From Gemmatimonadales bacterium (GTDB taxonomy: Bacteria; Gemmatimonadota; Gemmatimonadetes; Palauibacterales; Palauibacteraceae): a stretch of DNA of 64,000 bases. This document shows, one piece after another, positions 51,048 to 51,983 of the stretch. The DNA lies in contig VXOJ01000007.1 of assembly GCA_009840115.1 (NCBI GenBank), forward strand, positions 62,001 through 126,000. The letters are read 5' to 3'. A program made the translations under genes and the position numbers. The notes under the pieces were generated by a model, which was not told the origin of the DNA, made no database searches, and saw only the letters and a program-made list of their open reading frames with translations. The stretch's first letter is position 1. The number at the start of each line of letters is the position of its first letter.

Positions 51048-51287
51048 CGGCTCCGCCTACTTGGCGGTTCGCTTCCGCAGCGGGGGGTCTCCCAGCCCCA
51101 TGGCTTCGAAGTAGCCTTCGAGCCGAGCCAGACGCTCCTTATTACAGGATGGCGGAGCCGGTCAACGGAGACTCATCACGTTGCCGGCCGCTTCTGTCGC
51201 GCGGCCCCCCGGTGCGATAGGGTTGCCGAGTCGGCGGACGGCGGCGGCGTTCGCGGGCGCACTCAAGAGAAAAAGGGAGACAGGAAG
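51048..51287. other. Intergenic region with possible gene fragment on the minus strand
   Basis: No intact gene is seen. On the minus strand a short open stretch (51145 to 51059) reads NKERLARLEGYFEAMGLG and ends in a stop, like the tail of a lost gene. The rest, up to the selenoprotein start, shows no hairpin with T run. A purine-rich stretch with AGGAAG lies before the ATG at 51288. Confidence 0.3.
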
Positions 51288-51983
51288 ATGCGGATAATGG
51301 ACGCGCGTCACGCCCGGTTGTGGGCGGCGGGAATCGCGCTGGCGGCGGGAGCGGCCGGCTGCTCAGCCGGGGGAGACACCGCAGATGCGGACACCTCTGC
51401 GGCGGCGGGAGCCGACGAGGCCGCGGCGCAGGAGGCGGCCCAGGTGGCGCTCGGCCCCGTGGACGGGCACGACCTGCCCCCGGCGGACCTCGAGCGCGTG
51501 CTCGCCGGCCATCCGGCTCCCGACTTCACGGCCCTTTCAAGCACGGGCGAGCCGATCACGCTTTCGGACTACCGCGGAGAGAAGGACGTCATTCTCTTCT
51601 TCTACCGCGGCCACTGGTGACCGTACTGCGCAAAGCAGCTCGGAGAGCTGCGAGACTTCATGACGCCCGAACAGCGCGAACGGACCCAGCTCCTGGCGAT
51701 CGCCCCGGACAGCCCCGAGGACATCGGGCTCATGGTCGACCGCGTCCTCGAGGACTACGACTATGCGCTCGACTTCCCGCTCCTGTCCGATGACGGCTCC
51801 GCGATCACGTACCGCTACGGCCTCCTGAACGAGGAGGACGGGCGCGGGCGCCAGATCCCGCACCCGACGACCTACGTCATCGACATGGACGGCACGGTGC
51901 GCTGGAGCTTCACGGAAGTGGACTACCGCGTCCGCCCCGAGCACGCGGACATCCTCGCCGCGCTCGAAGCCCTGGAGCGCTAG
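51288..51983 (+). CDS. Selenocysteine-containing peroxiredoxin-like lipoprotein (UxxC)
   Basis: Thioredoxin-fold AhpC/TSA-like protein of 231 residues with an in-frame TGA at 51618-51620, codon 111. The redox motif in Cys homologues of this fold reads RGxWCPYC; here it is FYRGHW-U-PYC, so the TGA stands exactly where the first catalytic Cys belongs. The frame stays open on both sides: lipobox AAGC and PDFTALSSTGEPITLSDYRGEKDVILFFYRG before, and LGELRDFMTPEQRERTQLLAIAPDSPED, HPTTYVIDMDGTVRWSF after. A perfect hairpin follows the TGA (separate entry). Reads as periplasmic thiol/peroxide redox lipoprotein. The main alternative is a nonsense mutation. Confidence 0.85.
51618..51651 (+). promoter_or_regulatory. 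Candidate bacterial SECIS element
   Basis: After the TGA (51618-51620) and a 14-base spacer comes a perfect 7-bp stem GCAGCTC (51635-51641) with GAGCTGC (51645-51651) and loop GGA. The first loop G is 22 bases after the TGA, in the range known for SelB-recognised bacterial SECIS hairpins, which need a G in the apical loop. The sequence is also coding. Confidence 0.75.

Follow-up and report, generated by a model that had tools for sequence, protein, structure and literature searches.

The gene at 51288–51983 of the window (the whole stretch of 64,000 nucleotides that was analysed) carries a single TGA inside an otherwise open frame, and the question that this locus raises is whether that codon ends a short protein or is read as selenocysteine (Sec). 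We consider it almost certain, with a probability of about 0.98, that the TGA is read as Sec and that this is a genuine selenoprotein gene; the actual insertion of selenium we infer from sequence. The account as a whole is also highly probable: SelB and Sec-tRNA(Sec) would bind a hairpin just 3′ of the UGA, and Sec would be inserted at position 111 to give a full-length, exported redoxin with a peroxiredoxin (Prx) fold and a UxxC active site. Sec111 would then attack the substrate and Cys114 resolve the intermediate, as in thioredoxin/TlpA-type oxidoreductases or in a hydroperoxide-reducing variant. The features concerned are:

51275..51279, + strand: Shine-Dalgarno-like GGGAG, 8 nt 5′ of the ATG (sequence)
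51288..51983, + strand: predicted selenoprotein gene, ATG start, TAG stop, 231 residues including U111 (translation, Pfam, homologues)
51351..51362, + strand: weak lipobox-like AAGC (Cys25), 3′ of the N-terminal hydrophobic stretch (sequence, relatives)
Within residues 73–219 of the selenoprotein: AhpC-TSA/Redoxin domain (Pfam)
51618..51620, + strand: in-frame TGA, codon 111, U111 in RGHWUPYC (sequence; conserved in relatives)
51627..51629, + strand: Cys114, second residue of UxxC (phmmer alignment to AhpE; invariant in aligned members)
51635..51651, + strand: putative SECIS upper hairpin, stem GCAGCTC/GAGCTGC, loop GGA (fold, conservation)
51864..51866, + strand: Pro193 in HPTTYVID (phmmer alignment to Arg116 of AhpE; invariant in aligned members)

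An earlier note on this DNA had placed one TGA at the first redox position of an RGxWCPYC-type motif, followed by 120 intact codons, and a perfect 7-bp hairpin with a G-containing loop 14 bases after the TGA. The coordinates bear out both descriptions: 120 sense codons separate the TGA from the TAG, and the gap before the stem runs from 51621 to 51634, with GGA as the loop.

A contig scan with peptide patterns drawn from the protein, which finds close relatives only, returned 12 loci; 10 were family members, all from Gemmatimonadota and three named Candidatus Palauibacter, and in all 10 the frame was open and the codon position of the TGA unchanged. The other two were distant non-Sec relatives. 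Among the genomes of 60 relatives, the best 18 matches each had one TGA. Within the genus, the gene was present in 15 of the 17 members searched (the host's own genome included) and every match had exactly one TGA, at the same codon, so that neither decay nor other stops, which the earlier note had named as signs against its reading, were seen in close relatives; the two other members (G012 and G013) gave no family match at E 1e-30, though selB is present in them. None of the 14 genomes listed from the window's taxonomic family outside its genus gave a match at E 1e-30. In a phylum sample of 395 evenly drawn Gemmatimonadota genomes, scored on seven candidates per genome (so that further copies may be missed), the protein family was found at E 1e-30 in 85, all in the window's class, with the TGA form in 82 and a Cys codon in 3; the other 310 genomes gave no match at this threshold. 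This phylum sample yielded at least 88 matches, of which 84 had one TGA, three had Cys (G088, G116 and G300) and one was a fragment beginning after the site. In a class-wide sample, 98 of 394 genomes had a match at E 1e-40; these were largely genomes already met in the phylum sample. The family is patchy within the phylum.

For the locus counts, 60 further places were added, 87 of the 88 phylum-sample matches were inspected (the fragment being left out), and several extra matches from the class-wide sample were not included. This gave 125 loci with a family hit, 119 with U and 3 with C in the plain motif and 3 with U in a variant motif. Cys had been thought the usual residue at position 111, a view that does not hold in this subfamily, where 122 of the 125 loci, many of which repeat the same genome, have Sec and 3 have Cys. 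Homologue comparison at this position gave Sec at the same codon throughout the genus members and Cys in three genomes; the Cys homologues that aligned with the in-frame UGA were the three, from genus g33, plus a distant one from Bacteroidetes (RGHWCPVC). With repeats removed, the 122 plain-motif loci come down to 78 distinct contexts, of which 75 have Sec and 3 have Cys. The variant-motif Sec members read WUPFS, WUIYC and WURYC (L139, L176 and L177, respectively); in L139, with its TGA at 656–658, the second Cys is lost, and the genome holds another copy, L144. As for the surroundings of the gene, loci L022–L029 have their downstream flank in common with the window, and the upstream flank has the same order in L029 and is inverted in others. 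L030 and L031 have no neighbour in common with the window region compared, except for one 33% match in L030, and no partner gene was identified from the flanks of L022–L031.

The simplest alternative is that the TGA is a true stop, the locus being a pseudogene, a sequencing error or a gene for a truncated product of 110 residues. TGA is indeed an ordinary stop in this lineage, since it is the terminal stop in 25 of the 75 Sec genes, but a single TGA recurs in 15/15 genus members with the gene and in 84 of the 88 phylum-sample matches, its codon position is unchanged across the loci inspected, and the next stop lies 116–137 codons past the Sec/Cys codon in 78/78 distinct contexts. Moreover, dN/dS was 0.07 before the TGA and 0.10 after it (13 genus members, 77 of 78 pairs), so the region 3′ of the TGA is under purifying selection, and a conserved SECIS follows the codon. 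The conserved TGA and the purifying selection refute decay, pseudogene formation and sequencing error, and we regard termination at this codon as very improbable.

The reading as Sec depends on a decoding machinery, which the organism would have to encode outside the window, as the earlier note had remarked. We searched the host genome, a member of the Candidatus Palauibacter group (3.40 Mb in 71 contigs, 98.3% complete, 1% contamination, with the window on contig C29), and found all four components above their cut-offs. Profile searches of the host contigs gave selB on C27 (370.8 bits, curated cut-off 242.25), selA on C18 (489.7 bits, curated cut-off 267.9) and selD on C63 (369.1 bits, curated cut-off 125), and a tRNA-Sec with anticodon TCA lies on C27 (77.9 bits, gathering score 47). 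Absence of selB and tRNA-Sec, which would have spoken against Sec, was therefore not what we observed; on C29 itself neither selA, selB, selD nor tRNA-Sec was found. A mixed bin is an unlikely source of these genes, given the low contamination and the repetition of the pattern in relatives. The selD gene (L011, G000:C63:5-922), located at a contig end, has an in-frame TGA of its own (GAGUACK).

The same data bear on the possibility that TGA is reassigned throughout the genome, or is read as Trp or Cys by another tRNA with no selenium involved. Its sole support is that the frame stays open. Against it, the tRNA-Trp in the window has the anticodon CCA and a Sec tRNA with TCA is present, TGA still terminates family genes, and the Cys of the three Cys genes is encoded by TGC. 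We consider this alternative even less credible than a true stop, and its whole-genome form is ruled out by the 25 of 75 Sec genes that end in TGA.

Decoding as Sec would require a SECIS element. In the window, the stem arms lie at 51635–51641 and 51645–51651 (7 bp), and the distance from TGA to loop is 21 nt; with its 3-nt GGA loop, the hairpin falls inside the limits of the bacterial SECIS model published in PMC13188914 (G[G|U]N loop, stem of 4–16 bp, spacing of 16–37 nt). Folded alone it is unremarkable (z −0.35), with equally good folds in 67 of 200 shuffles of this GC-rich sequence. Because the fold alone does not beat shuffles, the cleanness of the hairpin needed comparative proof. The earlier note had argued that the SECIS was too clean to accompany a one-base change, and this argument stands on pairing and codon conservation but gains nothing from the single-sequence fold.

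Among the 75 distinct Sec contexts, seven pairs are formed in 66 and six in 9, the gap in the latter being solely at pair 1 or 7; pairs 2–6 are invariably formed, and every loop is G[G/T]N (GGN in 53, GTG in 22). Taken over these contexts, 98% of the stem cells are paired, compared with 51% at most when the 3′ arm is slid by 1–3 bases. Pair 1 is GC in 22 contexts, TA in 49 and unpaired in 4, that is, it is formed in 71 of 75, against a mean of 41 and a maximum of 52 over 2000 shuffles. On a quick tree its 3′ base changes twice, and just one or two independent pairs are available, too few to decide covariation; the apparent covariation at pair 1 agrees with the structure, but few events underlie it. 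Examined separately from the 75 contexts, the variant-motif Sec loci keep 7, 7 and 6 pairs, one of them having AT as its first pair and TG as its seventh.

Codon usage offers a second line of evidence for the predicted stem, one that is independent of the covariation test. Eight divergent genes, taken from the 17 aligned, all have CAG, GAG and CTG at the respective stem positions, and 7/8 also have CTC. At the loop codon GGN every one of the four third bases occurs, and elsewhere only 6 of the 47 columns with an invariant residue are codon-invariant. CAG and GAG are favoured codons in any case (0.90 and 0.79), so the weight of this evidence is carried by the two Leu codons (0.44 and 0.41). As the hairpin is conserved across relatives, it appears to be more than a product of chance; a chance hairpin is rejected by pairing and codon conservation, the z-score and fold energies being uninformative on this point.

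The three Cys genes serve as a control. They form one clade in one genus and represent one Sec/Cys change on the tree, which is unrooted for direction. Their codon is TGC in all three, and their hairpins have pair 4 broken in all three, with 2, 1 and 3 broken pairs in total. One of them (L121) still forms 6/7 pairs, as do 9 Sec genes, its gap being at pair 4, and mean fold energies (−12.5 kcal/mol for Sec, −11.4 for Cys) do not separate the sets. In the three Cys genomes selB was not found at E 1e-60 and selA was not found at E 1e-20. At E 1e-9, tRNA-Sec was detected in 78 of 82 Sec genomes and in none of the 3 Cys genomes; among the 78, G147 and G166 had weaker values, 5e-10 and 2.3e-10, in a search with stricter filters. 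The four Sec genomes in which tRNA-Sec was not found at E 1e-9 (G016, G138, G162 and G301) all have selA, and G162, the sole one tested for it, has selB. When the threshold was loosened, the seven genomes re-tested all gave weak tRNA-Sec hits (41.8–50.4 bits), and RF01852 scored just above its gathering score in two Cys genomes (50.4 and 48.6 bits) and one Sec genome (47.8). Control genomes behaved similarly at the looser threshold, with hits in 11 of 14, 5 of them over the cut-off, versus 3 of 14 at E 1e-9. Since selA and selB were not found in the Cys genomes, we read the weak RF01852 hits there as probably serine-tRNA-like.

Across the phylum sample, tRNA-Sec was found at E 1e-9 in 279 of 395 genomes and 102 of 138 genera, and Sec use looks common in Gemmatimonadota. 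Besides a full selB, one genome (G228) has an additional, partial selB-like match (228 bits, below the cut-off), the two regions being G228:C1:1849558-1850118 and G228:C1:1939878-1941716.

The protein itself is likely exported, judging from its N-terminus. In the window gene a hydrophobic start is followed by AAGC, near relatives have stronger forms such as SAGC and LAGC, and distant relatives are often without a lipobox-like motif. Of the 71 contexts (among 75) that were scored with a loose lipobox pattern, 28 matched; some of these matches were false, lying 5′ of the likely start, and at least one true case (L024) was missed. Many other members, read by eye, show AQ(A) before the domain, as for signal peptidase I, or what looks like a single membrane anchor. 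The locus had been described as encoding a lipoprotein: the window gene has a weak AAGC, and in many relatives a lipobox was not found, so that lipidation is no family trait. A lipid anchor is perhaps present in the window's genus, while export, and not lipidation, seems to be the common trait of the family. Because the N-terminal stretch is signal-like, the protein would function outside the cytoplasm.

With U entered as C, the Pfam search returned PF00578 (AhpC-TSA, 104.4 bits) and PF08534 (Redoxin, 75 bits). The AlphaFold model has a mean pLDDT of 70, with residues 1–57 below 50, and its best structural match is AhpE, the 1-Cys peroxiredoxin of Mycobacterium tuberculosis (1xvw, 4x0x; TMt 0.80, 30% identity), which is also the best sequence match (E 1.5e-12). 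None of 9 NCBIfam hits exceeded its cut-off, the SelL-related NF040769 scoring 37.6 bits against 120. AhpE and the window protein have the fold in common and differ at the active site: in the phmmer alignment, from which we derived the AhpE numbering by hand, U111 takes the place of the Thr of PxxxTxxC and Pro193 that of Arg116, while Cys114 is aligned with the peroxidatic Cys. Two of the residues on which the peroxidase activity of a peroxiredoxin depends are therefore missing. AhpE also differs in that the window protein has a signal-like N-terminus and is a predicted selenoprotein. Sec at the Thr position and Pro at the Arg position are invariant across 17 aligned members, and Pro193 of HPTTYVID resembles the cis-Pro of thioredoxin/TlpA proteins. 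WUPYC and HPTTYVID together have the look of a thioredoxin/TlpA site, and the combination of WUPYC and a PTT loop is characteristic of thiol-disulfide oxidoreductases. In short, PxxxTxxC with a catalytic Arg, the signature of classical peroxiredoxins, is replaced here by U111 and Pro193, and the protein has instead the PF00578 domain with UxxC in place of TxxU that marks Prx-like thiol:disulfide oxidoreductases.

Given Sec at the Prx Thr position and Pro193 in place of the Prx catalytic Arg, we lean towards a UxxC thiol-disulfide oxidoreductase and not a classical peroxidase. A true hydroperoxide-reducing peroxiredoxin, with Cys114 peroxidatic and Sec111 merely resolving or protecting, would agree with the top sequence and fold matches, which are AhpE-type 1-Cys peroxiredoxins, and with the alignment of Cys114 to the peroxidatic Cys; the invariant substitutions and the oxidoreductase-like site tell against it, as does L139, a Sec member with Ser at the place of Cys114, and we find it unlikely.

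Proteins of this kind are known, as had been stated of the Prx-like family. Prx-like UxxC selenoproteins were called an already-known family in the 2005 Sargasso Sea set, with 22 sequences (PMC1088965), Prx-like thiol:disulfide oxidoreductase selenoproteins are assigned to PF00578 with UxxC/UxxU and the representative WP_010940744.1 (Table 1 of PMC13188914; PMC1088965), and a Redoxin family UxxC selenoprotein is assigned to PF08534 (Table 1 of PMC13188914). With the former our protein has in common PF00578, UxxC replacing TxxU, a bacterial SECIS and a predicted redox function, but, by description only, the Gemmatimonadota protein may be set apart by an export-like N-terminus and by being nearly always Sec in the genomes sampled. 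With the Redoxin UxxC selenoprotein it has in common the PF08534 match and UxxC, and the two may be the same group renamed, although, again compared by description only, the window protein scores higher with PF00578. Searches of the open literature, judged by titles and the beginnings of abstracts, listed no study of selenoproteins from Gemmatimonadota or Palauibacter. The phylum is named once in PMC3281104, which deals with a kinase-like family related to selenoproteins, and "Gemmatimonad" is absent from the main texts of PMC13188914, PMC9312934, PMC5029168 and PMC12013277. Within the literature searched, a class-wide, almost purely Sec subfamily from Gemmatimonadota seems to be unrecorded.

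The distribution suggests that these mostly uncultured bacteria use selenium in a redox protein outside the cytoplasm. We entertain, at somewhat under even odds, the broader idea that selenium is standard in Gemmatimonadota redox chemistry outside the cytoplasm and that the exported UxxC redoxin had Sec from early on in the window's class and has retained it nearly wherever the gene survives, with Cys only in a lineage that lacks the Sec pathway; the early origin and the direction of the Sec/Cys change are our own reading, as the tree does not root the change, and we hold the idea at a lower probability because the family is confined to one class and absent from most sampled genomes. If it is true, the phylum would be an overlooked, largely uncultured user of Sec. 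Gene callers that treat every TGA as a stop split the gene, so that its product may carry a wrong annotation in these genomes. As Sec is used almost without exception, and Cys is confined to one clade in which neither selA nor selB was detected, the family would also offer a natural case for the study of Sec retention versus loss.

Finally, the host genome holds other candidates of this type. A second Prx-like UxxC candidate (L064, TGA near 2252 on the − strand; G000:C23:15359-15886) reads FFRGRWUPYC, and its hairpin has 8 bp and a GGC loop, 12 nt after the TGA; a 136-residue piece of this protein gave no NCBIfam hit, and similar genes occur in G001, G006 and G013. An in-frame TGA also occurs in a third PF00578 gene (L188, TGA at 1636–1638; G000:C6:7749-8144), which reads RTRGUTVQM after a signal-like N-terminus and has related genes in G012, G017 and G019. 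This classical TxxU Sec peroxiredoxin and the window gene have the genome, the Pfam family and the in-frame TGA in common, but its TGA is at the peroxidatic position (TRGU), whereas that of the window gene is at the Thr position.
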